Part shown: in pieces, positions 6,002-21,616 of the stretch
How the letters are laid out: each line of letters begins with the position of its first letter
Position numbering within the stretch: position 1 is the first letter of the stretch
Assembly: GCA_029256325.1 (NCBI GenBank)
Contig: JAQSYD010000028.1
Span: 1-49,446 of the forward strand
Direction of reading: 5' to 3'
Length of the DNA stretch: 49,446 nt
From: Clostridia bacterium
GTDB lineage: Bacteria; Bacillota; Clostridia; Lutisporales; Lutisporaceae
Notes under the pieces: model-generated
What the model was told of the DNA's origin: nothing
The model's input: the letters and a program-made list of their open reading frames with translations, nothing else
Database searches by the model: none
Position numbers and translations under genes: made by a program

Positions 6002-6769
6002 CTAATTTCTACTTATTTCGGTGCCGCCTAAAGCAAAGGCATAGAATTTCTCTACCTTCCAAGGGTTTAAGGTGGGTAGCGGCATTCCTTCCAGCATTAC
6101 AATAAAGCTAATTCCACCTATGCTTTCTGTCTCCTCGTCGGAATTATAACCAGCAATGTTTACTGAATAAGTGTTATTGCTCTCATAATTTTCTCGACCT
6201 TCAAGAAATTTGTTTAGCTCTTTTCTGATAAACTCGCTCACTAATGCTTCTCTTTCAATAGGGCTAATACCAAAGTCTATATCTCGCCCCCATAGATTTG
6301 TATTTTTTACCCTGACTTGATCTGACATTGTAAAGTAATACTTAGTACCTTTATAATCTATCAGATACTCTCTTTCATATATCCACTGGTCGTGCAGATT
6401 TGCAATCATTAGTCTATCAAAGCTTGCTATTGCTTTCATGGGAATATACTTTTTAATATTCTCTTGTGTTGTCATATCATCTTCAATTCCAAGATTTCTG
6501 AAAAACACCTTGTAAAACCAATCTAGTGCATTATCCTTATCGACTAAAATATTATCTCCATGCTGCATTTCACTACCAAATCCAATTGCTGCATATTCCA
6601 AGCTATCCCTATCATCATAAATATACGCCCTTGCAGCTGAGCTTGCCCCTGCATCCAATGCTCTTTTGTAGCGATCCTTCATAATGTCTAAATGGTCTAT
6701 CCCCTTTCCGATGAAAATAATTGGGGTGACAAAAACAAGAAATATTAATGTCCAGAAAAACCATTTCAT
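6002..6769 (-). CDS. TadE/TadG-like pilus-associated membrane protein
   Basis: About 255 residues with one N-terminal membrane segment (MKWFFWTLIFLVFVTPIIFI), then an Ala-rich helix (DRYKRALDAGASSAARAY) typical of TadE-like minor pilins, and a large predicted extracytoplasmic domain without further membrane segments. It is the last pilus gene of the operon. The start is set at the ATG of 6769 because GGAG lies 7 bases before it; an earlier in-frame TTG would place the RBS inside the gene. I infer that it is a minor pilin or assembly protein. Similarity to named family members is only architectural. Confidence 0.6.
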   Translation of the reverse strand: MKWFFWTLIFLVFVTPIIFIGKGIDHLDIMKDRYKRALDAGASSAARAYIYDDRDSLEYAAIGFGSEMQHGDNILVDKDNALDWFYKVFFRNLGIEDDMTTQENIKKYIPMKAIASFDRLMIANLHDQWIYEREYLIDYKGTKYYFTMSDQVRVKNTNLWGRDIDFGISPIEREALVSEFIRKELNKFLEGRENYESNNTYSVNIAGYNSDEETESIGGISFIVMLEGMPLPTLNPWKVEKFYAFALGGTEISRN

Positions 6770-6784
6770 ATATTCACACTCCAA

Positions 6785-7228
6785 CTATCTTATATAACTG
6801 CTTGACTTGCCAAACAAAGTAAAGTTATAGCTGCTATTTTTAGGTACACCCAAAACACTGTATTCATACATGATACTGACTGGATGTCTCTTCTTATAAA
6901 TAACTGTAAGACTTATGAGATCATAACCTTGGTTGCGCAGATCGTAATTTATAACAGTCTTACCATCTAGAATAATAGGTGCGCTATTCCCTTGATACTT
7001 CTCTGCTTTAATAAATACTTCATATTCACCATACTTGCTTAATTCCTCTTCCATGTCATTCAATACAGATTCGAATAGAATACCCTTTTTGGCAGCTACC
7101 TGCGTATATTGATAAACTATATTTTCAACGTCCTGCTGTGCTATCGTGTAGTTTCTGTCCAGTACGGTAAACATGGAATACCATGTAAAAATCGGCAATA
7201 CTACAAGCACTGCCCAAAAGTTATGCAT
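6785..7228 (-). CDS. TadE-like membrane-anchored pilus protein
   Basis: A 147-residue protein with an N-terminal hydrophobic anchor (NFWAVLVVLPIFTWYSMF), then an amphipathic helix (NYTIAQQDVENIVYQYTQVAAKKG) and a soluble domain. This matches the single-helix-plus-exposed-domain layout of TadE/TadF pseudopilins. It lies between two other membrane-anchored proteins downstream of tadABC. The RBS AGAGGTGAG is well placed. No Gly-x4-Glu Flp processing site is visible, so it is not a classical Flp pilin. Confidence 0.55.
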   Translation of the reverse strand: MHNFWAVLVVLPIFTWYSMFTVLDRNYTIAQQDVENIVYQYTQVAAKKGILFESVLNDMEEELSKYGEYEVFIKAEKYQGNSAPIILDGKTVINYDLRNQGYDLISLTVIYKKRHPVSIMYEYSVLGVPKNSSYNFTLFGKSSSYIR

Positions 7229-7280
7229 TTATCTCACCTCTTGTATTGAGTATGAGGACATGAGAACCTTGTCCTAAAAG

Positions 7281-7664
7281 TTAACTCTGCTCTGTAAATA
7301 TGATTGAGCTGGAACTGGTTTCCTTAAGATAATGCTTGTCTGAATCAACTATTGTGCTTATATTTTGCCCTGAATAACTTGGTTCAGTGGTAAAGATGTA
7401 GGATGTCCCCCCTTCTACCACCACAACTTTCATTGTATTGCCAGCCCTACAAATGTTAGTTACTGTGTTAATAACATCGTCACCGTTATAAGACAATGGA
7501 GCCATATCATCCACTCCAGCCTTCACTGCATTTACACTTTGCTGTGTACTTTCTGCCATTGCTTCCTGTGCTGATCTTTGCGGTGCATAGACATTTCCTA
7601 TGAAGAACAACCCTATTGCCGCTACGATGCCTAAAATCAGTAATTTTGACCAAAAACTATCCAT
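7281..7664 (-). CDS. Small pilin-like membrane protein of the Tad locus
   Basis: 127 residues: a short cytoplasmic start, one membrane helix (residues 8-25, LLILGIVAAIGLFFIGNV), a helical segment rich in Ala/Gln/Ser (SAQEAMAESTQQSVNAVKAG) and a beta-rich C-terminal domain. It follows tadC directly, with RBS GGAGGGTG. Its position and size make it the best candidate in this locus for a main pilin, but the usual Flp cleavage motif (Gly followed by Glu five residues later) is absent, so this role is inferred from context only. Confidence 0.5.
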   Translation of the reverse strand: MDSFWSKLLILGIVAAIGLFFIGNVYAPQRSAQEAMAESTQQSVNAVKAGVDDMAPLSYNGDDVINTVTNICRAGNTMKVVVVEGGTSYIFTTEPSYSGQNISTIVDSDKHYLKETSSSSIIFTEQS

Positions 7665-7684
7665 ACTATCACCCTCCTATATTT

Positions 7685-8845
7685 TTATTTCATTAGCATA
7701 TTTGCTGGATTTGATATAACCGTCAAACCATATGCAAAATATATACATCCTAAGCCTATTACCACAGCCATTGCCGACATAGCATATAGCATTTTGGCAC
7801 GTCGCCTTTTGATATTTTCAATTTCAATCCATTTTATTGTATTTGTTATCGTATCATCTAAATCATCTACAGCATTAACCAAACCAGTAACCTTTGCAAG
7901 CTTCATCGTTTCTATCAGCTCATATAACTCATCTCGGTCCACAGACTCAAGAGCCGTATCAAAGGCTTCCTGTTGTCGCCCTCCTTTTTTTATTCCTTCA
8001 ATCAATGCTTCAATTAAGGGCTTGTACACTTCTGTCGCAATTGCCATATGCTCTAATATATTAAGCACTGAATATGGCTGCATCCTGCCAAAAGTAGAGA
8101 ATACAATCATGCAATTCAGTATTTCCCAATTTTTCTTATCCTCAATTAATTTTCTTTTTATTTGACCAAGCATATCCGGTAAATGATAAACAAGAATACT
8201 AAACATAATAATATAAATGTAAGGAGTGATACTATTTCTGATAATTCTTGTTTGCAGCACTTTATAGTATAATCGCTGCGCTGTAGTTTTGAGTCTATCA
8301 CCAACTTCTAAGCGCTGATCTGATAATAAACTTTCTATATTTTCAATATAAATATGCTTTTTCTGCTTATCATATATTTCTTTGTTATTTTTGAGCATTT
8401 CATCAACTAGATTATAGAGTTGCTTTTCCAATGCAATATTTTGTTCAGTTTCAACATTTAGTGTTTCAATAATATTATGGTTATAGTTGACATTCTGCAC
8501 GATGTCTTTCAATTCAATCGTTGCATTTGTTGTTTGTATGGTCACAAGCATAAAAAGCGTCACAGCAAACATACCCCACTTACATAAATAAATATCTTCG
8601 ACACTGATTTTCCATCCAACAGAAGTCAAGAAATATTTTGTTCTTATAAATTTATTACTGCTTGGTTTCGGAACAAAAGGATAAAGCTTCCTTACCGTTT
8701 TTCTGTTAATTACTCTGATATATTCATTACTGAACAACCGCTTAAGTTTAAAATTTCTAGCTGCATAGGATATATAGATATATATCACTGCTATTATCAA
8801 TAATGTGGCCAAACTCTGTACAATAATTATAATATTCAACTCCAT
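7685..8845 (-). CDS. tadC: Tad pilus inner-membrane platform protein, TadC-like
   Basis: 386 residues with membrane segments near the N-terminus (IIIIVQSLATLLIIAVIYIYI), around residues 90-110, around 205-225 and at the C-terminus (AMSAMAVVIGLGCIYFAYG). The cytoplasmic stretch IEALIEGIKKGGRQQEAFDTALESVDRDEL resembles the type II secretion F domain found in TadB and TadC. These proteins form the membrane platform with which the TadA ATPase works. It follows the TadB-like gene by 6 bases, behind the strong RBS AGGGGGG. The B and C assignment rests on gene order. Confidence 0.7.
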   Translation of the reverse strand: MELNIIIIVQSLATLLIIAVIYIYISYAARNFKLKRLFSNEYIRVINRKTVRKLYPFVPKPSSNKFIRTKYFLTSVGWKISVEDIYLCKWGMFAVTLFMLVTIQTTNATIELKDIVQNVNYNHNIIETLNVETEQNIALEKQLYNLVDEMLKNNKEIYDKQKKHIYIENIESLLSDQRLEVGDRLKTTAQRLYYKVLQTRIIRNSITPYIYIIMFSILVYHLPDMLGQIKRKLIEDKKNWEILNCMIVFSTFGRMQPYSVLNILEHMAIATEVYKPLIEALIEGIKKGGRQQEAFDTALESVDRDELYELIETMKLAKVTGLVNAVDDLDDTITNTIKWIEIENIKRRRAKMLYAMSAMAVVIGLGCIYFAYGLTVISNPANMLMK

Positions 8846-8851
8846 GCCCCC

Positions 8852-9661
8852 CTATATCTGCTGCTTACGCATCCAATGAATAAAAAGAGCTGATAAATTT
8901 GCAGATAAAAATATATAAGCTTTTATATTTTGAGCCTTAATCCCTTGATATACGTCCTGCATATTCATTTCAATCAGTATTTTGGCATTAATCCAATCAG
9001 AGGAAAAGATAAAAAGCAGAGGTATGAAGTAAAGGAATAGTTGTATAAATTTTAACTCAGCATCGTTGTAACCTTGCTGGACATTTATAAAATTCAATAT
9101 ATTCGTTATTTTGGTTAGGCTCTTTCCTATCAAATTTGTCTGACTTCCATCGGCTTCTACCCCAACCCCTTTCTCCTTTGCCATATAAATTATAGATGCC
9201 AGCATTCTAAACCATACAAATGGAAATGTAGTTTTTAGTGTAGTGATTTCTTCCCCAGGTCTTCCCGATAAAAGTGCCTTGCGGATTTTTACCAAGTACA
9301 GCTTTGCCTCTAAAGGACACTTTTCTTCAGCGTCCTTTAAAGTTGGAATCACATTGCCTTTATAATGAGTATAATAATGAGAAAGTTTTCTTGTAGTTTT
9401 TGGCAAAGAAAGTTTAATTCTGCTTTCTACTTGCTCAAAATACAAATCCTGTATGCTATATCCGAATATCAATGCAGATATTACAGCAAAAAGCTTATGA
9501 TACCATAAGGTATGAAAAAGTCCGATTGCAAGAGCAAAATAAGTTATACTGGCAGCACATACTACAATGAACAATATTGAGGTCTTTGATAAATTATCTG
9601 AAAAGCTGCGTTGGTTAAGAGATGAAAGTCTATTATTCATGTTCAACTTCAGCTTATTCAT
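8852..9661 (-). CDS. tadB: Tad pilus inner-membrane platform protein, TadB-like
   Basis: About 269 residues with two hydrophobic segments near residues 25-70 and two more at the C-terminus (LFLYFIPLLFIFSSDWI and AYIFLSANLSALFIHWM), around a cytoplasmic helical region (ALLSGRPGEEITTLKTTFPF...IIYMAKEKGVG) like the T2SSF fold. The ATG at 9661 lies within the last codons of tadA and is preceded by GAGGTGG at 9 bases, which indicates translational coupling. With TadC it would form the pilus platform. Sequence conservation is weak and the call leans on context. Confidence 0.65.
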   Translation of the reverse strand: MNKLKLNMNNRLSSLNQRSFSDNLSKTSILFIVVCAASITYFALAIGLFHTLWYHKLFAVISALIFGYSIQDLYFEQVESRIKLSLPKTTRKLSHYYTHYKGNVIPTLKDAEEKCPLEAKLYLVKIRKALLSGRPGEEITTLKTTFPFVWFRMLASIIYMAKEKGVGVEADGSQTNLIGKSLTKITNILNFINVQQGYNDAELKFIQLFLYFIPLLFIFSSDWINAKILIEMNMQDVYQGIKAQNIKAYIFLSANLSALFIHWMRKQQI

Positions 9662-11426
9662 TATATCCAGCCACCTCATTTCTCTTTTTATTGTTTACAA
9701 TAAGTTCTAAGAATCTCTCCATATAATTCCATGAATCTTTATTAGACCTTGCTCTTTTTAATATTTGCTCTGATGGCATATTTAAGAATTTAGGGATACC
9801 ATCCCGCGCATCCATTATTTTGTTCAGCCTATACATATTGTTTGGATTGTTTTGTATTTGTTGAATATAGTACAGCCTTTGCAGTTTTTCTATATCAGTA
9901 TCAATGTTTAAATCAAATCCATATTCAAAGGCAGTACTTACCATAGGAACCACCTCAACGATTTCTGTTATGATTCTCTTCCCATTTATAATATTATGTT
10001 GAAATATCAAATTTACATAATTTACAATATCCATTACCGCACTTTGTTCAGTATGATAACGCCCTGTACCAAGGAGTAAATTCTTAAACCTAGGTACAGT
10101 AGTTTCAGGGTTTGCAACGTGTACTGTAAACCAAGCTGACATGCTTACAGATTGTATTAACTGCAGCACACTATACAAAGCCTCCCCGCTCCTTACTTCT
10201 CCAAGGTCTGCTACGTCTACACTTAACCGAAGTATTGTTTTAACTGCATCCTCCAGGGATTTATTGTATAAGCTTTTAAGCTCTACAATCCTTTTATACG
10301 GATATTTCTGCATAACATGCTGTTCAAAGAAATCCTCTACAATTCCAATATGCAGATTATCATCCAATAGCTCATATAATGCAGACATCGTGGTGGTTTT
10401 ACCTGTCCCCAAGCTTCCCTGCATGCAAATACTCGCACCGCTTCTGACCAAGGCAGTTACAGCTGTAAGCAATTCTTCTTCACGCAGTAGTTCTTTTATT
10501 CCCAGATGTCTTTGGTTAAATATTCTGGTGCATAAGTTCCTTGCCGAAGAATATGGCTGCTGGGTAACAGTAATCCTTGCTAAATCGCCTCTATAGCATA
10601 ATTTCTCCGGCGAACTCTCATCCAACTGTCCCGCATCCTTATCAAAGGATATTGCTCTATCCTGTACAACCCTGGCTTCCTCCTTTGTAAGCTCTAAGAA
10701 ACTAAGCCAAATCTTTATGTCACACCAACAGTAAACATATTTACCATCATTGGAAAAGCCTATTTCGTTTATATCAGAGTAAGCAAGAATGTCTAGACAC
10801 ATCAATCCAAAGATATTTTGATAAATAATCTGTACTACTATTTCCACTTTATCGGTGAAGCTTAAGGGGCTTCTCTCCAACTCCATGCGGTATATAAAAT
10901 CAATATCTTCCTTATTGTATTCATGCCTATTACTGGTATATTGCCAATTTCCCGTGCCATCACTTCTTTGCTTCGTATATATATCATATTTGCTTATTAA
11001 GTTCTTAAACGCTTGGGATCGGCCCCTGGTCTCCGTTCTATTCAAATATAATATTATATTGAATTTTTCTTCTGCTGTAAGCTTTTCAGAACATTCAAAA
11101 GGCAATACTTGTTCAATATAATCATTATCCTCTTCTATTCTTACATCTCTGCAAAGGGGTATATCCGCTAAACTTCCATCCTCTAAAACACTGTAGATAT
11201 TAAAGCTGGTTAATAAATCAGTTTTAATATGAGCCTTTAGTATATTTCTATCTTCTGCATTGCCGGAGGTGGAGCTATCCTTAAAATTTTTGAGAATACT
11301 TATAATTCTTTTCATTTGCTCATTTTCCGGTTGTCTTATGATGAAGCTTTCAAAGTTTTTTTCAATTTGCTTACAAAGCATGTTAATATCCAATGCCTTC
11401 AAAATCTCTTTTTGGTAATTAGACAT
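9654..11426 (-). CDS. tadA: Tad pilus assembly ATPase TadA/CpaF
   Basis: About 590 residues. The secretion ATPase core is recognisable: Walker A GSLGTGKTTT at about residues 337-346, and the Walker B/Asp-box region ADLGEVRSGEAL at about 405-416, in place of the common IVGEVRGGEA. An unusually long N-terminal region (about 1-300) precedes it. TadA powers polymerisation of pilin subunits at the inner membrane. The ATG at 11426 overlaps the end of the preceding gene by 8 bases and has GGGGTG at 6 bases, so I prefer it to the ATG at 11471. Confidence 0.85.
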   Translation of the reverse strand: MSNYQKEILKALDINMLCKQIEKNFESFIIRQPENEQMKRIISILKNFKDSSTSGNAEDRNILKAHIKTDLLTSFNIYSVLEDGSLADIPLCRDVRIEEDNDYIEQVLPFECSEKLTAEEKFNIILYLNRTETRGRSQAFKNLISKYDIYTKQRSDGTGNWQYTSNRHEYNKEDIDFIYRMELERSPLSFTDKVEIVVQIIYQNIFGLMCLDILAYSDINEIGFSNDGKYVYCWCDIKIWLSFLELTKEEARVVQDRAISFDKDAGQLDESSPEKLCYRGDLARITVTQQPYSSARNLCTRIFNQRHLGIKELLREEELLTAVTALVRSGASICMQGSLGTGKTTTMSALYELLDDNLHIGIVEDFFEQHVMQKYPYKRIVELKSLYNKSLEDAVKTILRLSVDVADLGEVRSGEALYSVLQLIQSVSMSAWFTVHVANPETTVPRFKNLLLGTGRYHTEQSAVMDIVNYVNLIFQHNIINGKRIITEIVEVVPMVSTAFEYGFDLNIDTDIEKLQRLYYIQQIQNNPNNMYRLNKIMDARDGIPKFLNMPSEQILKRARSNKDSWNYMERFLELIVNNKKRNEVAGYNE

Positions 11427-12282
11427 CAATTTCACCCCAGTGCTTTCTTCTAGGAAACAGCATGTCAACAAGCCTATTATTATCCTGTATTTCTTCCAAT
11501 GGGATCAAAAGCTTCTCGGCAATGATTCCGCTTAGCTCTCTCATTTGTTCAACCATGGGAATATAAGAATTCCTCTTATTTAATTCCTTTTTTAGGAAAC
11601 TATACATTTTACCCTCACTGCAAGCAGCTTTATTTGTCTTTACATCGTAGGAGATACCATAGGATGCCTTTAGTCCTAATCTGTCATTATATCTTTTTAA
11701 GGTCTTAACTTCTCCGCTTGTAATGTGTAAACCATTAAATATTGGAATTGCTTTATCACTCTTAACATATTCCTGTATTGTTTCGCTGCTTTCAAAAATC
11801 TCTTTCAGCATTAATTCATTTTCATTCATAACTGGAAGTACCATGTCAGCACTATTAAGAAACACTTGATTTTCCTTATTTATACCTGTTTCTAAATCAA
11901 CTATAACGATTTCATAAGCCTCTAACGCTTTCTCAATAAATCTTTGATAAAAACCTTCTCCAACCTTAGTTATTCCACTGGTAATCCTGCAGTTTGGCAA
12001 AATACACAACAAATCATTTATACTAGTAGCATAGGTCTTTATATGCTCTGCACTTAAATCCATGTTGAAGCTTCTTAAATAATCCATTGAGAATCTTATA
12101 TCCACATCATTTTTTAAATACTGCTCCATAAAGTTTCTTGGACTGCCCATATTGACAATTAAGGTTCTCCTATTAGTAATATGCTGCAGCGTAATACCGA
12201 TACAATTTGCTATTGTACTTCCACCTGCCCCATGGTTACCAGGTACCCATACTGCAATAAGCCTACCTTTTTTATCTCTCAT
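11419..12282 (-). CDS. TadZ/CpaE-like MinD/ParA-family protein with atypical P-loop
   Basis: 287 residues with a MinD/ParA-type fold: beta strand plus P-loop-like WVPGNHGAGGSTIA (residues 12-25), YEIVIVDLETG (about 155-165, Walker B region) and LPVMNENELMLKEI. The P-loop has Gly-Ala-Gly-Gly-Ser-Thr, so the invariant GK(S/T) lysine is missing. TadZ proteins place the Tad machine at the pole and some members are poor ATPases. The gene lies between cpaB and tadA and overlaps tadA. It is the second ParA-like protein in the locus. Confidence 0.7.
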   Translation of the reverse strand: MRDKKGRLIAVWVPGNHGAGGSTIANCIGITLQHITNRRTLIVNMGSPRNFMEQYLKNDVDIRFSMDYLRSFNMDLSAEHIKTYATSINDLLCILPNCRITSGITKVGEGFYQRFIEKALEAYEIVIVDLETGINKENQVFLNSADMVLPVMNENELMLKEIFESSETIQEYVKSDKAIPIFNGLHITSGEVKTLKRYNDRLGLKASYGISYDVKTNKAACSEGKMYSFLKKELNKRNSYIPMVEQMRELSGIIAEKLLIPLEEIQDNNRLVDMLFPRRKHWGEIDV

Positions 12283-12285
12283 CTA

Positions 12286-13023
12286 CTATTCGCCCCCGCT
12301 CATATTTGTATCTCCAAATTTCGATGCAGCCTTTATTCCCAAAGCTTTATTTTCGTGGCTATATTGTGGTAAATATGTTACAGCACTTGCTTCTTGAGAC
12401 TTGTCCAAATACTGCACAAGAAAAAGTTGACCTTCTGTACTAGCCTCTTTAATATTCTCCTGCTCAGTTTCATTTAAATAAAAGCTTAAGGTTTGATTTG
12501 ACTTCCCGATTACAACAGCCTTTGTAATCACAACACTGTCCAGCTCTTTAACCCTAAATAGCTTTATATCTACTATACTTCCCACCGCTACCGTTAAAGG
12601 TATAGCTCCCTCTTGAAATGTGTGCTCAATAAGCCTGTCACCCACTTCGTACCAATCTCCACTTTCAACTAAATCACTTTGCAATAAAAACTCCTTATCT
12701 CTTATTTCAACTGATACTCTTTTATTTTGCAGCTGCTGTAATGAGCCCACTGCTCCAGGAGGTACAATACCTGTTGGTACTTGAGCTATTTCAAATTTTA
12801 ATGCATCCGCTATTTCACCTGCTTGTATATTCCTATTAGCTCGTACAACACTCATCATATTCTGCTCCTTAGCAGCAGTATGACTGTTTTCCATCGTTGT
12901 TCCAGTCCTATTGCTTAAAAATAAAGCACTCCCTGTACCTAGCAAAATGAATAATAATATTAGCATTACATATAATACCAGCTTCTTACTTATGCCTAAT
13001 CTCGTCTGTCTTACATAACTCAT
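12286..13023 (-). CDS. cpaB: Flp pilus assembly protein CpaB (SAF domain)
   Basis: 245 residues: cytoplasmic start, one membrane helix (LVLYVMLILLFILLGTGSAL), then a SAF domain (VVRANRNIQAGEIADALKF, then VPPGAVGSLQQLQNKRV). This is the layout of CpaB/RcpC, which acts outside the membrane in Tad pilus assembly, perhaps through carbohydrate binding by the SAF fold. It overlaps the upstream gene by ATGA (13020-13023). RBS GAGGAAG. Confidence 0.8.
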   Translation of the reverse strand: MSYVRQTRLGISKKLVLYVMLILLFILLGTGSALFLSNRTGTTMENSHTAAKEQNMMSVVRANRNIQAGEIADALKFEIAQVPTGIVPPGAVGSLQQLQNKRVSVEIRDKEFLLQSDLVESGDWYEVGDRLIEHTFQEGAIPLTVAVGSIVDIKLFRVKELDSVVITKAVVIGKSNQTLSFYLNETEQENIKEASTEGQLFLVQYLDKSQEASAVTYLPQYSHENKALGIKAASKFGDTNMSGGE

Positions 13024-14219
13024 CGTGCTTCCTCCCTATTCATAATATAATTAGGTGTGCCTTTTCTATTTCTAGCATTTAAAGCACTTAATATATTGTT
13101 CATATCCATACTAAAGCTGCTACTTTTTACTGTTTCATAGGGCGTTTTGCCAGTATGCATCAAATCACAGCCCAAATTACCGCAAGTACTCAAGGGCAAT
13201 GATCCCTTAAACTTTATATTCAACCTGCTTATTTGTTTGTATATGTAATTATAAGACTCGCTGCCTGTACTGCAGTTGTTCATAATAGCATAAGTTTTCT
13301 CTGCTATAAAATGACTGCCCAGCTTTTCAATCATTAGTTTATTCATGTGAAAATGCATAAGATCGCTATCAAAAATGAGAAGATCAATATTTGAGTTGTT
13401 TATTGCTTGAAATGTTACATCGTTTAATCCTGTATATGTATCAATTATTAGAATGTCGCTTTTTGATCTGGTAAAATATAAGAACTTTAAAAAATCTTCT
13501 GATGAAATTAAACTGTCGCTTCCTAGGTTTCCTGTTACTACACGTAAGTTTCCTTTTTTATAGCATTGATCTAAGATACTTTGGTGCTCCCCCTGTTTAA
13601 TCAGGTATTCCAGCAAGTCAAAATAAATTTCCTCTATTCCAAAATATAGATTTGCCGAATATCCACGGTCAAAATTTAGCAACGTTGTTTTATAGCCCCT
13701 TCGAGCAAAGGCTGTTGACAAATTCCATGCCAAATGCGACTTGCCATTTGAACAGTTTGAATATATACTAATGACTGCTTTATCCAATTCCTTGACCCAC
13801 AAGGTTTTCGCATTGGTTTTTATGAAACCATTTGTTATAGTCCGCTTCTCCTTTTTATTATTAAACAGCAACCGATTCAGGTCTAAGGATGATACATGCT
13901 CTCCAACATGATAATCAATTATGTTTTTGCCTTCTAAATATTTTAGAAATAATTTTGTATTGCTGTCTTCCACTCCGTATAAGTAAATAATTCTCAATTC
14001 AGATCTAAGGGCTTTTATCCTGTCTATCAAGATTTGAGGATTTTCACTGCCTATCAGATATCTAGAAAGGACTAAAGTATCGGCTTTAGAATAGTTAAGC
14101 AGCTCATACAGCTCCTCTGCACTTTCTGCAACATCAGAAATTTCCACACCGTAGCTTTGTGCAATAAATCGATGCATTTCTGCATGACCTACCGCCAATA
14201 ATAGCCTCAAATTTGTCAC
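13020..14219 (-). CDS. CpaE/TadZ-like protein (receiver-like domain plus ParA-type ATPase)
   Basis: 399 residues. Residues 1-120 look like a response-regulator-like or atypical receiver domain (LRLLLAVGHAEMHRFIA, TLVLSRYLIG, IIYLYGVED). From about residue 145 a ParA/MinD-like domain begins (AVISIYSNCSNGKSHLAWNL, P-loop at 155-164; then KSDILIIDTYTGLND). This two-domain order is that of CpaE. It is the first gene of the pilus operon. GTG at 14219 lies very close to GAGG; TTG at 14210 has AGGTG at 6 bases and is an equal alternative. Confidence 0.72.
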   Translation of the reverse strand: MTNLRLLLAVGHAEMHRFIAQSYGVEISDVAESAEELYELLNYSKADTLVLSRYLIGSENPQILIDRIKALRSELRIIYLYGVEDSNTKLFLKYLEGKNIIDYHVGEHVSSLDLNRLLFNNKKEKRTITNGFIKTNAKTLWVKELDKAVISIYSNCSNGKSHLAWNLSTAFARRGYKTTLLNFDRGYSANLYFGIEEIYFDLLEYLIKQGEHQSILDQCYKKGNLRVVTGNLGSDSLISSEDFLKFLYFTRSKSDILIIDTYTGLNDVTFQAINNSNIDLLIFDSDLMHFHMNKLMIEKLGSHFIAEKTYAIMNNCSTGSESYNYIYKQISRLNIKFKGSLPLSTCGNLGCDLMHTGKTPYETVKSSSFSMDMNNILSALNARNRKGTPNYIMNREEAR

Positions 14220-14802: not shown

Positions 14803-15336
14803 CTATATAAGATATTTAACTAATAATTTACCACCTATCCAAGCTCCGAAAAAAATGAATATCCAATAAACCCAGCCATGTATGGACATGGATGCAACCC
14901 CGCTGAATAATGTTCCGATATTACATCCAAAGGATATTCTTGCACCATAGCCCATTATAAGCCCGCCAAGTGCTGCAGCAGCGACTTGCTTCCATGATCG
15001 AATCTTCTTTATTCTAAACTGCGATGCCAATAAAGTTGCCAGAAGAGCGCCAAATATGATGCCAAAATCAGATAAAGACTGCATATTCTGTGCAAATCCG
15101 CCTACTAATGCTGCCGCTTCACTTTTTTCCTGAAAGTAAAACCATGATTCAGGATGTCCACCTATAGCTTGATATATCCATGCTGCCCAGGTAGCAAAGT
15201 AAGATGTTACACCCCACGCCTTTCCTGTAGATACCAGCATGCCAATATTCAATAATCCCAGAATCACTGCACCAACGGTATATGGCCACGGTTCCTTTAG
15301 AAATTTTTTGTAATAAACATTATTTCTTAAATCCAT
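14803..15336 (-). CDS. YeeE/YedE-family transporter, C-terminal-half type
   Basis: 177 residues with about five membrane helices. It carries the family signature GGLIMGYGARISFGCNIGTL (about residues 128-147), whose Gly-Cys pair lines the substrate path in YeeE/TsuA thiosulfate transporters. A full YeeE has two homologous halves (about 350 residues); here the halves are separate genes (this one and 15623-16282) flanking a TusA. The set should take up thiosulfate or a related sulfur or selenium species and pass it to the TusA cysteine. RBS GGAAGGTG precedes the ATG. The substrate is inferred. Confidence 0.85.
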   Translation of the reverse strand: MDLRNNVYYKKFLKEPWPYTVGAVILGLLNIGMLVSTGKAWGVTSYFATWAAWIYQAIGGHPESWFYFQEKSEAAALVGGFAQNMQSLSDFGIIFGALLATLLASQFRIKKIRSWKQVAAAALGGLIMGYGARISFGCNIGTLFSGVASMSIHGWVYWIFIFFGAWIGGKLLVKYLI

Positions 15337-15367: not shown

Positions 15368-15595
15368 TTATTTTGTTTTTTTAATGTATATTTCCCACAG
15401 ACCAGCATCAACTTCTGTAACTTCAACATGATATCCTTCTTTGCTGGCCCATTCAGGTACATTTTTCAGTGCACAGCTATGATCTGTTTCTACTATCATA
15501 ACCTCTCCTACCCTCAAAGCGGCCATCTTCTTCTGTGCTTTGATCAAAGGGATTGGACAAGCCTCTCCCAAGCATTCTAATCTTATTGCTGACAT
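15368..15595 (-). CDS. TusA-family sulfurtransferase
   Basis: About 75 residues, the size of TusA/YedF proteins. The family motif is GEACPIPLIKAQ with the active Cys-Pro-x-Pro cysteine near residue 13; a second conserved patch is ETDHSCAL. TusA proteins carry persulfide sulfur between partners. Its place between two YeeE halves fits the YeeE-TusA (TsuA-TsuB) couple known from thiosulfate uptake; the related YedE/YedF pair is linked to selenium metabolism. The ATG at 15595 is preferred, 9 bases after GAGGTG; the upstream GTG belongs to that RBS. Confidence 0.9.
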   Translation of the reverse strand: MSAIRLECLGEACPIPLIKAQKKMAALRVGEVMIVETDHSCALKNVPEWASKEGYHVEVTEVDAGLWEIYIKKTK

Positions 15596-15622
15596 TCTTA
15601 TTTTCACCTCAAATACTTAGCC

Positions 15623-16282
15623 TTATTGACTCGGCTTCTTATTTCCATGCCAATCAGCCAATATAAAAATTGCTAATAGCAGTACAAATTGAACGGTTAT
15701 TGCTAATGGCCACCCCAATACCTCAGGTAAGAATATTCCTTTCTCAGGCATAAAGTTAATTGACCACCATCCAAAATCCTTAGCTCCCCATAGAGATCCT
15801 ATTAAAAAAAATATAAAAGAGATCATTTGCATAACGGAACCTTCACCAACTCTCATTAACGTTCCTGAAGCGCATCCGCCTGCGATCACCATGCCTATTC
15901 CAAATAATACAGCGCCTACCACAGTATGAATCCCAACGGGGTCGATATTTCCAGGTATTGCAATCCCATTGGTCACAGCTGCAAATTGAAGTGCTGCGAA
16001 GCCGATAGTCGCAGTCGCTATCGCAATTACTACAGCCTTTGTTAAAGAAGTGCCTCCAGTCAGCAAAGGATCTCTCAATGAAGCTGTAAAGCAAAATCTT
16101 GATCTCTGCAATACAAATCCTGCTGCAACGCCAAATCCCCACAAAAGCGCTGATTTAGGCTGTTGAATTCCTACGAAAAATCCTACACCTATGATAGCAA
16201 TTAAAAGTCCTACTCCAATCGGAATTTGATTCATTCTTTTATTATTTGTTTTTGCACCTATGGACGTTTTAATTTCAGTCAT
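15623..16282 (-). CDS. YeeE/YedE-family transporter, N-terminal-half type
   Basis: About 219 residues and five to six membrane helices. Two family signatures carry cysteines: LQRSRFCFTASLRDPLLTGG and GAVLFGIGMVIAGGCASGTL. It pairs with the separate C-terminal half at 14803 and the TusA between them. The ATG at 16282 follows GAAGGGTG; the in-frame GTG upstream is part of that RBS. The start region (GAAAAGcATGACTGAAATT) and the 70 bases before it closely resemble those of the selenoprotein gene at 20459, which implies shared regulation. Confidence 0.87.
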   Translation of the reverse strand: MTEIKTSIGAKTNNKRMNQIPIGVGLLIAIIGVGFFVGIQQPKSALLWGFGVAAGFVLQRSRFCFTASLRDPLLTGGTSLTKAVVIAIATATIGFAALQFAAVTNGIAIPGNIDPVGIHTVVGAVLFGIGMVIAGGCASGTLMRVGEGSVMQMISFIFFLIGSLWGAKDFGWWSINFMPEKGIFLPEVLGWPLAITVQFVLLLAIFILADWHGNKKPSQ

Positions 16283-16349
16283 GCTTTTCACCCTTCAATC
16301 AATTGTAAATTGATTAACATATCAAAATGCTTTATTTCACATTAATTAT

Positions 16350-16368
16350 GTTAATTATATAACAAACA
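16350..16368 (-). promoter_or_regulatory. Promoter core shared with the selenoprotein operon
   Basis: GTTAATTATATAACAAACA occurs here and again at 20527-20545, each time 68 bases upstream of the gene's start codon. On the coding strand it contains TATAAT, a probable -10 element, without a good -35, as expected for a LysR-activated promoter. Confidence 0.65.
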
Positions 16369-16392
16369 ATTCGCTTTCTATTATAAATTTCT

Positions 16393-16417
16393 CTTATACA
16401 GTATAAGAATTTCTTAT
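16393..16417. promoter_or_regulatory. Probable LysR-type operator (two overlapping palindromes)
   Basis: CTTATACAGTATAAG (16393-16407) and ATAAGAATTTCTTAT (16403-16417) overlap. Both fit the TTAT/ATAA dyads bound by LysR regulators. They lie directly upstream of the yeeE promoter core and downstream of a decayed lysR start. Confidence 0.6.
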
Positions 16418-16487
16418 ATCCAAAATATACAGGAAAATTTATTCGCTTATGATTATTTTGTTGTATAAAGAAAGAAGAATAATTGAT

Positions 16488-16630
16488 ATGCACATACTTA
16501 TCTTACTTTATTTCTTATCATAGTTAAACAGGATAGTATCTCTATATGCTCCAAGAATTTACACCTGACCAAATAACCCTTCATAATGCGCTTTTGAGCT
16601 TTAGCGAAATCTCAATTGATATCATTTTAA
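16488..16630 (+). pseudogene. Decayed remnant of a second LysR regulator gene
   Basis: From ATGCACATA onward the sequence aligns base by base with the start of the intact lysR at 20714. Translated with one frame correction it reads TYLTLFLIIVKQDSIS.CSKNLHLTK, against SYLTSFIEIVKQDSIS.ASKNLHMTQ in the intact gene. A frameshift and several stop codons kill it, and similarity fades after about 16630. It sits divergent to yeeE just as the intact regulator sits divergent to the selenoprotein gene, so the regulator-promoter segment was duplicated and one regulator lost. Confidence 0.8.
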
Positions 16631-16721: not shown

Positions 16722-18068
16722 TTAATTTGTACAACAGCTCACTGGCTTTGGTGCCTTGGTACTTATATCGTCAGGAATATTATTGATATCATCTACAACG
16801 ATGAATTTTCCATCTAGCATACCCATCCAGCAGCTAAATCCTAATTCTCCCACTTCCTCTGGGGTAAACTTTATAATATTATAGCCTTCTTTAAGCTTCA
16901 GTGAAATATTTAGTTCAGGAATAACAATCTCATTGTTGCAGCTATTTATAGAATCTCCTGAAATCACCCAGTTCACAGGCTTTCCCTTTTCCAATATAAA
17001 GTAGTTAGGTTCGTAACCATTTGAATTCGCAGAAGTGTTTATAACCTGAAAACCATTCATATTCGCCGGAAGCATGGCTTCTGATGTCGCCTTCCTTGCA
17101 TTGATGAAGCTATCCAGCGTGCCATTTCCCTGTAACGCTAACCCTCTATTAACAATAATTAGACCCAGAATAATTACTAGTACTGAGCTTAACTTTAATA
17201 ACTTCCTATTTAACCCACTGCTTATATATCCGCTGATCGTACCCAAACCCATCATCAATGGTACTGTTCCCATACTGAATACAAACATGGATAAAGCTCC
17301 TTTTAATATACTTCCAGTTCCAAGCGCATATATTTGCATTGTTTGCAATGGGCCGCATGGCATAAGACCTGTAGCCAACCCAATTAATAATGGCGCATTT
17401 TTATTGCTTTTATATTTAGAAATATTAAAAATTGCGGGCAGCTTTATGTATTTTCTAAGAAATGCAAAGGGCTGAAGCATACTCAAACCCATAAGAATCA
17501 TAAATGTCCCGGCAAAAATTGTAATATAACCTTTGACCATGGGCGAAAAGCTAACTATTGAGCCAATTCCCCCCACAATCGCTCCCATGGCTGTATAAGC
17601 TATTACTCTACCCACATTGTAACCCAGCGTAGCTTTAATAGGATTTCCAAAAGCCATACTCTGAGAAATCACAATACCACCGCACATTGAAAGGCAGTGC
17701 AAGGATGTTGCTATACCCAAAGCAAACAATATTCCGTAGCTAACCTTTTCTTGAAGCTGTGGAAGAGTGTTAAACCCAACTGTATTTTTAATAATCAAGT
17801 AAAAACCAAGAAGAACCAATAATGCTACTATAATACCTTTAACTTTATTGTGGCTTGCTGAACTATCCTCTGCAATTTCTGCAGTATAACCTAATTTATG
17901 AATAGCGGTTACAATTGAATCCTTATCTTCAGAAATACATGTCAATTCTTCATTTTCGTAAGAAACCTCAAGTTCCTCTAAGGCCATATAACTAAGCCCG
18001 TCTTTTATCTTCTTACTACAATTATGACAATGCATTCCCTTAATTTTCAAAGTCAGTTTCTTTTTCAT
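16722..18068 (-). CDS. HMA domain - TauE/SafE-type membrane protein - cupredoxin-like domain
   Basis: 448 residues in three parts. Residues 1-70 are a heavy-metal-associated domain with the CxxC site (GMHCHNCSKK, Cys14 and Cys17). Residues about 75-310 are a six- to seven-helix membrane unit of the UreH/DsbD-like TauE/SafE group (LHCLSMCGGIV and LMPCGPLQ, each with a conserved cysteine). Residues about 340-430 resemble a cupredoxin fold (YFILEKGKPVNWVISG, EEVGELGFSCWMGMLDGKF). The end is PVSCCTN. The layout suggests handling of copper or electron/thiol transfer across the membrane. It may form part of the neighbouring export/redox cluster, though a gap of about 215 bases separates it from the FMN-binding gene. 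Confidence 0.82.
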   Translation of the reverse strand: MKKKLTLKIKGMHCHNCSKKIKDGLSYMALEELEVSYENEELTCISEDKDSIVTAIHKLGYTAEIAEDSSASHNKVKGIIVALLVLLGFYLIIKNTVGFNTLPQLQEKVSYGILFALGIATSLHCLSMCGGIVISQSMAFGNPIKATLGYNVGRVIAYTAMGAIVGGIGSIVSFSPMVKGYITIFAGTFMILMGLSMLQPFAFLRKYIKLPAIFNISKYKSNKNAPLLIGLATGLMPCGPLQTMQIYALGTGSILKGALSMFVFSMGTVPLMMGLGTISGYISSGLNRKLLKLSSVLVIILGLIIVNRGLALQGNGTLDSFINARKATSEAMLPANMNGFQVINTSANSNGYEPNYFILEKGKPVNWVISGDSINSCNNEIVIPELNISLKLKEGYNIIKFTPEEVGELGFSCWMGMLDGKFIVVDDINNIPDDISTKAPKPVSCCTN

Positions 18069-18282: not shown

Positions 18283-18729
18283 TTATTTTGCAGCTTCTAA
18301 GGCATTTATTACAGCTTTCATAATACCTTCACTTGCAATTGTCGCACCTGTTACTACCTCTACATTTGGTGTGTTCTTTTCAACGATAGCTGCTGGAATT
18401 TGTTCTAGGGCTGGTTCAGCAATTCCCGCAGTTTCTTTGTGCTCTTTAATTTCAACTTTTGCTATTTTGCCACCTGCAACTTCAACAGCTACTTTTATTG
18501 TATGCATGCCTTCCGCTGTTCCTTCATAGATACCATCTTTATAAACTACTACTTCTTCTGCAGGTTTTTCTTCTGTCTTAGGCTCTTCTTTTGCAGGTTC
18601 TGTTTTGTTTTCTTCAACCTTAGGTGTTTCTTGAACTGGAGCTGCAGCTTCGTTTGTTCCTCCACTGCATCCAACTAGAGCAGTAACTACGAATAGTAAT
18701 ATTAAAGTAATTGATATTATTTTCTTCAT
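18283..18729 (-). CDS. FMN-binding domain lipoprotein
   Basis: 148 residues. A lipoprotein signal (ALVGC, Cys21) is followed by a long Glu/Pro/Lys linker (about 25-60) and an FMN-binding domain (YKDGIYEGTAEG at 63-74, VEVAGGKIAKVEI, and VVTGATIASEGI at 125-136). The TGAT segment corresponds to the S/T-G-A-T flavin site of this family, whose members carry FMN and take part in extracytoplasmic electron transfer. It lies 28 bases after tatC, so it is probably cotranscribed with tatAC. It could be the electron donor or acceptor for the exported cysteine/selenocysteine protein encoded upstream; that is inference. Confidence 0.88.
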   Translation of the reverse strand: MKKIISITLILLFVVTALVGCSGGTNEAAAPVQETPKVEENKTEPAKEEPKTEEKPAEEVVVYKDGIYEGTAEGMHTIKVAVEVAGGKIAKVEIKEHKETAGIAEPALEQIPAAIVEKNTPNVEVVTGATIASEGIMKAVINALEAAK

Positions 18730-18757: not shown

Positions 18758-19513
18758 TTATTCTTCGTTTAATGTATTATTTTCTTTTTTCTTTTCTACT
18801 AAGCCAGCTAAAAAGATACCTATTTCAGCAAGCAGAAGCATTGGTCCCGCCAATATGATCTGGGAAATTACATCCGGCGGCGTCAAAATTGCAGCTAGTA
18901 CAAAGACTATCAATATAATATACTTACGGTTTTGCTTTAAAAAGCTTACCTTTAGAATTCCAAATCGACTTAAAAGCACCATCAAAATTGGCAATTCAAA
19001 AATAGTCCCAAAGGTGAAAAGAGTGCTTAGTACAAAGCTTAAATAACTTTCAAAGCTTATCATAGGCTTTATTGCCTCTATTTGAAATCCCATAAAGAAT
19101 ACAATCATTGTAGGAATAACCACAAGATACGCGAAGGTCACACCAGCTATAAAAAATATGCTCCCCAGAAGCAAAGAGAAGAAAATATATCTTTTTTCTT
19201 TGCCATTCAAGCCTGGTATTACGAATAACCAAATTTGAAATATTAAAAACGGTGCCGCAATTATTAGTCCACCTATAACAGACAGCTTAATATATGACAT
19301 CAAAAGCTCAGCTGGAGCTATGAATATAAATTCAACATTCTTAGCTATATCAATTAAATCCTTGATTATATTTTCAACAAAACTGTAGCAGAAGCCTACT
19401 GCTAAAATTAGCGCTATTGCAGAATATATTATTCTCTTTCTCAGTTCTGCCAAGTGTCCAACAAATGTTAATTTTTTTTCTTCCTTTGGTTTACTAGTTT
19501 TTCTTTTCATCAT
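18758..19513 (-). CDS. tatC: Sec-independent protein translocase TatC
   Basis: About 251 residues with six membrane helices. The conserved N-terminal block [19 protein letters not shown] is the signal-peptide contact region of TatC; further family features are [29 protein letters not shown] and the last helices ([15 protein letters not shown]). With TatA it exports folded proteins. The start is probably one of the two ATGs at 19513/19510, with AAGG about 9 bases upstream, overlapping the end of tatA. Its immediate neighbours are tatA, a putative exported redox selenoprotein and an FMN lipoprotein. Confidence 0.95.
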
Positions 19514-19682
19514 CAGTATCAACCTTTAAATCTTCAGATACCTTACTTGCATGAGTTTTAAATTCTTTAATTGCTCTTCCTAAAGTTTTTCCAATCTCAG
19601 GCAATTTAGAAGGGCCAAAAATTACAAGTGCTATTGCCAATATAAGGATTAGTTCTGTTGGGCCAATTCGTAAGAAACCCAT
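19494..19682 (-). CDS. tatA: Sec-independent translocase subunit TatA/E
   Basis: 62 residues: the short hydrophobic helix [19 protein letters not shown], the hinge [12 protein letters not shown], the amphipathic helix [12 protein letters not shown] and an acidic tail, all standard for TatA/TatE. The ATG at 19682 is chosen because GGGAGG lies 7 bases before it; the upstream ATG overlaps that RBS. The gene overlaps tatC. There is no separate tatB, as is usual in Gram-positive minimal TatAC systems. Confidence 0.94.
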
Positions 19683-19757
19683 AGCTGTCCCTCCCATCTT
19701 TTTTATTCTGATAGTTTTTATTTACTTAAATACTTCATTGGTGTCCCTGTTTTATAT

Positions 19758-19814: not shown

Positions 19815-20459
19815 TTATGCCAAAGTTCCATTCAGTAATTCAACCATCTTTTTTGTTACTTCGCCAGCAACTGCCGCACAACGGCTTTTTCTTTCAGCGC
19901 TTCCATATTCAAAACCGCTTACTTCCATAAACTTACCAACTGACTTTTCGCACAAAACTGAGTCTGCAACAGTTTGAGGTAAGTTCAGGCCTTCCGGTTG
20001 ATAAGTTGGGAAACTTTCTTGCTTATACCACTTTGAAAGTTCTGCTATTAATTTCTTTGATGTTTCCACATCACATACAGATCCAATACAAGTTGCTGCT
20101 ACCCCTATGCTGCCGCAAAGAGTAGCTTGTCCATATCCACCAGCTGCACTTGTAAATGCTTCTACCGGTATTTGATTAAATGGATAGCCTACTTGCTCTG
20201 CTAATTCGCCGAAGAACCCTTCAGCCACGCCGCCGCCTCAGCCACCCTTTTCTTTATAGCCTTTAAATCCTCTTGCCAATACCTTTTCTGGATCTAGCTT
20301 TTTATAAGGAAATGGCCATTGAGGCTTCTCTGCTACTGCAGATGTAGGCTCAGCAGTTGTGCATCCTGTCAGTACAGATCCTAAAGTACCTACTACTGTT
20401 ACTCCGGCAACAGCTTTTCCTACGCCTTTAAGAAACTCTTTTCTTGAAATTTCAGCCAT
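19815..20459 (-). CDS. Exported C_GCAxxG_C_C family selenoprotein (UGA = Sec)
   Basis: One reading frame of 214 residues interrupted only by a TGA at 20238-20240 (residue 74). Before the TGA: an export signal with a Tat-like start (SRKEFLKG), a hydrophobic core and LTGC33 (possible lipobox), then YKEKGG. After it: GGGVAEGFFGELAEQVGYP and spaced cysteines at 115, 124, 129, 170 and 194 (TLCGSIGVAATCIGSVC, SVLCEKS, KSRCAAV). From memory, homologues have Cys where the TGA stands, and the family includes annotated selenoproteins. A hairpin fitting a bacterial SECIS follows the UGA. The signal has Arg-Lys rather than Arg-Arg, but tatA and tatC are the next genes. ATG 20459 is preceded by GGAAGG. 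A redox role outside the membrane is likely; the substrate is unknown. Confidence 0.85.
20208..20225 (-). promoter_or_regulatory. Putative bacterial SECIS hairpin
   Basis: On the coding strand GCTGAAG (20225-20219), loop GGTT, CTTCGGC (20214-20208): seven base pairs, one of them G-U. The loop begins 19 bases after the UGA and opens with G, as expected for the bacterial SECIS bound by SelB. Confidence 0.7.
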
Positions 20460-20526
20460 ACTTTTCACCTTCCCATTATATTGTTAATCGATTAAATAAA
20501 ATATTTTATTTATTGCGCGCTACAGC

Positions 20527-20545
20527 GTTAATTATATAACAAACA
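20527..20545 (-). promoter_or_regulatory. Promoter core shared with the yeeE operon
   Basis: The identical 19 bases found at 16350-16368 recur here, again 68 bases upstream of the gene's start codon. The coding strand carries TATAAT. It is a probable LysR-activated promoter for the selenoprotein gene and perhaps for tatAC. Confidence 0.65.
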
Positions 20546-20610
20546 TTGTGACTTGTGTCATTAGCTTCTCTAATATACAATTAGAATTAATGATATGCAA
20601 TAAGCGTTGG

Positions 20611-20623
20611 TTATGCAGAATAA
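20611..20623. promoter_or_regulatory. Probable LysR operator
   Basis: TTATGCAGAATAA forms a TTAT-N5-ATAA dyad in the divergent lysR/selenoprotein spacer. It is close in sequence (CAG.ATAAGAAT) to the palindromes at 16393-16417 before yeeE. Confidence 0.5.
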
Positions 20624-20713
20624 GAATCAGTTATAATCTGCAATGTCTAAAATGCATATCATAAAACCAATTACAAATAGTTATTCTATGATTAAGGAGA
20701 AGGTTGATCGTTT

Positions 20714-21616
20714 ATGCATATATCTTATCTTACGTCATTTATTGAAATCGTAAAGCAGGACAGTATATCTAAAGCATCCAAGAATCTGCACATGACTCAG
20801 TCGGCTCTGAGCCAACAGCTTCAAGCCTTAGAGAAATCTTTGGATTCTAAGCTTTTAATAAGAAGCAATAAGGGTGTAGAGTTGACTGAGGAAGGCGAGA
20901 TCCTATTGAGCTATGCAGAGGCTCTCATAAATATTTATGAAAATATGCTTAAGGATATTGATCTTTGCAAAAAATCAGAAATTCAGGAGATTAAAATATC
21001 TTCCTGTAACAGTGTTGGAGAATATCTGCTGCCGTGCACCTTGCACCTGTATAAGAAAAGCCAGCCTGATACCAGATTTTCAATTAAAAATGAATATACC
21101 AAGGATATTATTGACCATGTCTTAGACTGTAGTGCCGATATTGGCTTTATTGACTCGAAAGTAAATATCGATGGTATAGAATGTATTCATATAAGCAATA
21201 TCAATTTGATATTTGTTTATTCAAGCAATCGCAAAATAAATAAGGAGTCAATTTCATTGAAGGATATCGCTGCTTTGCCTATTATAACAGGACCAAGTGC
21301 AAGCAGTATAAGAGAATTTAGTGAAGAAATGTTTAAAAGAAATAATATTCCTGTTGAAAAGTTAAATATAGAAATGGAACTGGCCACTTATGAGTCCATA
21401 AAAGCATCCGTCGTAGCAGACCATGGCGTCTCAATCATCCCTGCTACCTCTGTAAAAAAAGAATTACACACGAATTTATTAAATACCTTGCCCATTCAAG
21501 AGGATATACCGGTCTGTGAAATCTGCGTCATATACCAAAAAAGCAGGGCTTCGCAGCCTCACATTAAAGAGTTCATATCGTTTATAAAAAATTATGGGAG
21601 AAAAACTTTCTGCTAA
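20714..21616 (+). CDS. LysR-family transcriptional regulator
   Basis: 300 residues. The N-terminal winged helix-turn-helix (residues 1-60) reads YLTSFIEIVKQDSISKASKNLHMTQSALSQQLQALEKSL in parts typical of LysR proteins, followed by a periplasmic-binding-like effector domain (residues 90-295). It is divergent from the selenoprotein gene, with 250 bases between that hold TTAT/ATAA dyads. RBS AAGGAGAAGG. Because the same promoter segment stands before yeeE-tusA-yeeE, this regulator probably controls both units, perhaps in response to a sulfur or selenium metabolite. A decayed copy of its own start is found at 16488. Confidence 0.92.
   Translation: MHISYLTSFIEIVKQDSISKASKNLHMTQSALSQQLQALEKSLDSKLLIRSNKGVELTEEGEILLSYAEALINIYENMLKDIDLCKKSEIQEIKISSCNSVGEYLLPCTLHLYKKSQPDTRFSIKNEYTKDIIDHVLDCSADIGFIDSKVNIDGIECIHISNINLIFVYSSNRKINKESISLKDIAALPIITGPSASSIREFSEEMFKRNNIPVEKLNIEMELATYESIKASVVADHGVSIIPATSVKKELHTNLLNTLPIQEDIPVCEICVIYQKSRASQPHIKEFISFIKNYGRKTFC

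Follow-up and report, generated by a model that had tools for sequence, protein, structure and literature searches.

An in-frame UGA predicted to encode selenocysteine in a probably exported C_GCAxxG_C_C protein of an uncultured Clostridia bacterium

Layout of the locus and the read-through product

The window (the whole 49,446-nucleotide stretch of DNA that was analysed) carries on its minus strand two open reading frames, 20238 to 20468 and 19815 to 20228, that share one register. Between 19815 and 20459 this register is broken only by the TGA at 20238 to 20240, and reading through it gives a product of 214 residues. The likely start codon is the ATG at 20459, with GGGAAGGTG directly ahead of it. 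The read-through product begins MAEISRKEFLK and continues through LTGC33, the segment EKGG-U74-GGGVAEGFFG, LCG (Cys115) and SVLC170 to RC194. Genes for Tat translocase subunits, an FMN-binding lipoprotein, a composite membrane protein and a split YeeE/YedE transporter with a TusA-like protein follow on the same strand, and a LysR-type regulator is encoded divergently (Table 1). A second selenoprotein was sought as an in-frame TGA in the other operon genes, none of which was convincing. Further downstream of the operon, at 6002 to 14219 on the minus strand, the window holds genes that resemble a Tad/Flp-type secretion or pilus cluster, judged by their translations only.

Table 1. Features of the predicted selenoprotein locus and its neighbours in the window
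Feature	Coordinates	Strand	Basis or description
Predicted selenoprotein gene, 214 aa with Sec74	19815..20459	-	Tat-type lipoprotein signal, then split-Soret/C_GCAxxG_C_C domain
N-terminal export signal, Tat-like SRKEFLK and lipobox LTGC (Cys33)	20361..20459	-	Sequence; weak Tat-target model match
In-frame UGA, predicted selenocysteine at residue 74, GG-U-GGG	20238..20240	-	Homologue column; faces Cys of 1h21
Bacterial SECIS hairpin, GCUGAAG-GGUU-CUUCGGC	20208..20225	-	Comparative pairing and bSECIS constraints
tatA (Tat translocase subunit), first gene after the selenoprotein gene	19494..19697	-	Profile matches; adjacency kept in relatives
tatC-like translocase subunit	18758..19522	-	Named from sequence and place after tatA; tblastn synteny
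FMN-binding lipoprotein	18283..18729	-	PF04205
HMA, DsbD/CcdA-like membrane and cupredoxin-like protein	16722..18068	-	PF00403 and PF13386 above cut-off; PF13473 just below
YeeE/YedE (Sulf_transp), first half	15623..16291	-	PF04143; NF033796 below cut-off
TusA-like sulfurtransferase between transporter halves	15368..15607	-	PF01206
YeeE/YedE (Sulf_transp), second half	14803..15336	-	PF04143
Divergent LysR regulator	20714..21616	+	Best NCBIfam match selenium-metabolism LysR NF040786, 183 bits vs cut-off 250
Putative shared regulatory region, with a second copy upstream of yeeE (about 16290-16570)	20468..20796	-	blastn

The product matched the C_GCAxxG_C_C profile PF09719 with 33.2 bits against a gathering cut-off of 27 (E 6.2e-08). 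By both sequence and fold, its best match in the PDB was the split-Soret cytochrome c of Desulfovibrio desulfuricans (1h21; phmmer E 3.7e-18), to which it is homologous over residues 51 to 211, with 28% identity in the structure match. The AlphaFold model used here was built from 8 sequences and is poor (mean pLDDT 59), so it served for the fold match only, in which 1h21 alone was significant. The match to the split-Soret profile NF047622, at 109 bits, fell below the curated cut-off of 400. Unlike split-Soret cytochrome c, the window protein has no CXXCH and no C-terminal part, and it has a predicted selenocysteine. The CXXCH haem motif was absent from the window protein and its close orthologues and present in longer, more distant homologues. 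Because the haem-binding part is absent, the function of the split-Soret family cannot be transferred to the product.

In the alignment with 1h21, U74 faces the Cys of KGFGCGFG; 1h21 and almost all homologues retain Cys115, Cys170 and Cys194. The product thereby matches the four conserved non-haem cysteines of the split-Soret family, with Sec74 standing for a Cys. Cysteines have reportedly been proposed as ligands of the iron centre of split-Soret cytochrome c. The predicted selenocysteine stands in place of the first of these four cysteines, all of which we infer to be ligands of an iron centre.

At the N terminus, Arg6 is found in all 45 homologues that have a residue at that position, followed by R in 26 and K in 17. 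Compared with the Tat motif SRRxFLK, the window protein has SRKEFLK and its homologues have RR or RK, and the tat genes are adjacent. The SRKEFLK motif suggests export through the Tat system, and the product is probably lipid-anchored at Cys33.

The sequence-only reading had taken the two adjacent frames for one frame split only by the TGA, with an export signal upstream and a C_GCAxxG_C_C domain downstream. The common register, the Tat-like motif followed by a lipobox, and the PF09719 score above threshold all bear this out. The family assignment likewise stood and could be refined, as the closest characterised relative is a split-Soret cytochrome c whose haem-binding part is missing here.

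The UGA position and the downstream hairpin in homologues

Homologues were gathered from named genomes together with 391 class-level and 398 phylum-level genomes. Of these homologues, 56 could be aligned at the UGA column. The codon there is TGA in 34 of them and TGC or TGT in the other 22; no further residue occurs, nor does TAA or TAG. The count excludes one truncated homologue (L028, in G050) that is without the Sec region and looks decayed. The homologue tree, from which L088 was omitted, requires at least five switches between Sec and Cys. Orthologues with the same TGA are 56 to 88% identical, and the TGA reaches homologues down to roughly 40% identity. Sequence is kept on both sides of the UGA, at 88% identity with the nearest relative and about 55 to 65% with more distant genera. 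Thus, the expectation that homologues carry Cys at the UGA was correct, the column being Cys or Sec only.

Two further observations concern individual homologues. The fragment L088 (G413:C28) has Cys at the Sec column and a TGA at a conserved Trp position, which may reflect an error, decay or a changed code. In G501 and G421, Sec and Cys paralogues both occur in one genome.

The hairpin begins 12 nt past the UGA (15 from its U) and has a 7-bp stem and a 4-nt loop, GGUU, which starts with GG and begins after 19 nt. By itself it folds with −8.2 kcal/mol (z −3.9). The 51-nt stretch as a whole showed no unusual stability relative to dinucleotide shuffles (z −0.53), so the hairpin in a single sequence is weak evidence, and comparative and synonymous tests were used in place of single-sequence stability. 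The bacterial SECIS model as given in PMC13188914 specifies a loop of 3 to 9 nt with G in the first two loop positions, a stem of 4 to 16 bp, a distance of 16 to 37 nt from the UGA and an MFE of at most −7.5. The loop, stem, distance and folding energy of this hairpin all lie within these limits, in agreement with the earlier proposal of a SECIS-like hairpin whose loop starts with G.

Since the amino-acid motif AEGFFG by itself favours pairing, we tested the hairpin in 4000 simulations that recoded each gene synonymously at its own codon frequencies. The 31 distinct Sec members include 20 with perfect pairing (7/7) in the same register, where synonymous recoding predicts 3.4. None of the 4000 simulations reached 20, a result that is not a strict probability because the members are related by descent. 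As expected, perfect pairing was seen in none of the 22 Cys members. In 11 orthologues, codons +6 to +9 (GAA GGG TTC TTC) have invariant third bases, and most other conserved codons vary. Pairing is also kept in sequence variants such as GAGG-GGGU-CCUC, CAAG-GUCU-UUUG and GAAG-GGAC-CUUC. These comparisons indicate a SECIS conserved beyond protein constraint.

The remaining 11 of the 31 distinct Sec sequences pair imperfectly in the +13 to +30 register, and four of them have an alternative loop at +31. In the distant Sec homologues L079, L083, L086 and L087, the usual hairpin is absent and a conserved hairpin with an AGUU loop lies 31 nt after the UGA.

Selenium machinery of the genome and alternative readings of the UGA

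The genome contains selD (394 bits), selA (648 bits) and selB (394 bits) in a row. The selD gene (L017:7053-8096, plus strand) has an in-frame TGA of its own, in the context SSG-U-AAK, which makes SelD a predicted selenoprotein too; the grdA gene likewise has an in-frame TGA, at the classical CFV-U site. SelB scored above cut-off in 38 of the 41 genomes with homologues. Two of the other three (G348 and G757) have the Cys form, and the third (G561) has the Sec form in a 90%-complete assembly, its congener G460 having SelB.

A single selC was detected in the assembly (L018:6824-6913, minus strand; G000:C55:34724-34813), with anticodon UCA and 49.8 bits, above the gathering score. Relative to its genus-mate G002 (L032), it is missing about 63 bp, among them a TATAAT resembling a promoter element and the acceptor strand on the 5′ side, and the remainder is identical. 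ARAGORN did not accept the assembled selC as a tRNA, and the assembly holds no second copy. The sequence-only reading had named selA, selB, selC and selD as the genes to look for; selA, selB and selD are present, and selC was detected in an assembled copy that is 5′-truncated.

A truncated, promoterless selC present as a single copy in the assembly would be expected if recoding were real in the family and tRNA-Sec had recently been lost in this strain, leaving the gene silent here. However, selA, selB, selD, grdA and the selenoprotein gene all look intact, as expected of an assembly error, and the genome is an 88%-complete assembly in 198 contigs. Because the remaining Sec genes are intact, we favour an assembly error over a real recent lesion, and consider a loss in the strain unlikely. 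With selC truncated, this assembly cannot by itself vouch for decoding in exactly this strain; the isolates Anaerosolibacter carboniphilus, Alkaliphilus serpentinus and Sedimentibacter saalensis have the TGA gene together with an intact tRNA-Sec.

The damage to the only selC in the assembly could also be taken to favour a nonsense mutation, in which a Cys codon became TGA and left a pseudogene. That reading is very improbable, given that the same TGA is found in 34 homologues, some only about 40% identical, with both flanks conserved and never TAA or TAG in its place, and that the Sec/Cys changes on the tree include clades with a long-lived TGA. At the level of the family, the common TGA and the conserved flanks refute it. 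An in-frame GTG a few codons past the TGA would allow two genes, one for a short peptide anchored by its signal and one for a domain started separately at GTG 20228; we rejected this reading and give it next to no credence, as the Cys-codon homologues are single continuous frames, the downstream piece is without the export signal and the first conserved Cys, and the GTG lies inside the conserved motif GxGVAEGF, where it alternates between GTG and GTA. We found no support for, and rejected as wholly implausible, a changed code that decodes UGA as Trp or Cys, in view of the full set of Sec proteins, the conserved SECIS, a column that aligns with Cys and not Trp, and the canonical UGA-Sec sites in GrdA and SelD.

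An intact selenoprotein gene, rather than a broken one, is thus the preferred reading, because relatives have a UGA or Cys codon at this position and the UGA forms carry the recoding hairpin. For the gene family, we consider it highly probable, from sequence comparison, that the locus is one selenoprotein gene in which UGA is recoded as selenocysteine.

Relation to known families, operon context and possible role

PMC9312934 already lists C-GCAxxG-C-C proteins with Sec as a selenoprotein family, and PMC13188914 gives two forms, 1 and 2. The window protein shares with them the Pfam domain PF09719 and a predicted Sec replacing a conserved Cys. The C-GCAxxG-C-C entries of the two reviews give representative accessions only, with no Sec-site motif, and leave operon and export signal undescribed. 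For split-Soret cytochrome c, Abreu et al. (cited in PMC5701242) report a novel iron centre in their title. We regard the gene as a very well supported predicted member of the known C-GCAxxG-C-C selenoprotein family. The subgroup that lacks haem and carries an export signal is less well documented, as is its sulfur/selenium-transport operon; a literature search that left most subscription papers outside its scope found no description of this subgroup with its operon.

The gene order is fully kept in the closest relatives, and the linkage of tat, YeeE/TusA and LysR genes recurs in more distant genomes. Two blocks of the upstream region are repeated ahead of yeeE (70% over 158 columns, E 8e-14; 76% over 84 columns, E 3e-13), which suggests that the selenoprotein gene and yeeE are co-regulated; the repeats probably represent a regulatory region that was duplicated and serves the LysR protein. 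YedE/TusA-type modules for selenium or thiosulfate transport likewise contain YeeE/YedE, here split into two halves around TusA. The YedE family and the LysR_Se subfamily have been proposed as selenium-linked (PMC5322559). The LysR protein of the operon best matches a selenium-metabolism LysR; all LysR and YeeE matches to selenium- or thiosulfate-related models are below their cut-offs.

The single frame, the Sec/Cys column, the SECIS, the Sec-machinery proteins and the conserved operon are established by sequence comparison; we infer an export route, a lipid anchor, a metal centre, electron partners and a substrate as follows. SelB with Sec-tRNA(Sec) would bind the hairpin, which lies immediately 3′ to the UGA, and direct selenocysteine to residue 74. 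The product would leave by the Tat route, probably through the adjacent tatA/tatC pair, would probably be lipid-anchored, and may function as a redox protein with a split-Soret/C_GCAxxG_C_C fold that holds no haem. One metal or redox centre would be formed by Sec74, Cys115, Cys170 and Cys194, as proposed for the cysteines of split-Soret cytochrome c. As a guess based on the shared operon, the product may trade electrons with the FMN lipoprotein and with the DsbD-like protein in the membrane; it may also serve the handling of sulfur or selenium compounds tied to the YeeE-TusA-YeeE transporter. We offer the functional part of this explanation, taken as a whole, as a tentative possibility. It is rather doubtful, if conceivable, that the locus encodes a selenoenzyme module that is exported and works on sulfur or selenium oxyanions. 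In such a module, a haem-less, lipid-anchored extracytoplasmic split-Soret member with selenium as a ligand of an iron-sulfur-type centre would have a Tat translocase dedicated to it and a YeeE-TusA transporter regulated along with it.

Ordinary gene calling cuts the gene into two wrong pieces, so that a conserved, probably exported selenoprotein is easily hidden, and the gene recurs across many Clostridia and related Bacillota. The operon offers a testable link between a predicted exported selenoprotein, Tat export and YeeE/TusA transport. The Sec and Cys forms, with their repeated switches, may serve as a natural system for learning what is gained when selenocysteine takes the place of a cysteine that is a proposed iron-centre ligand.
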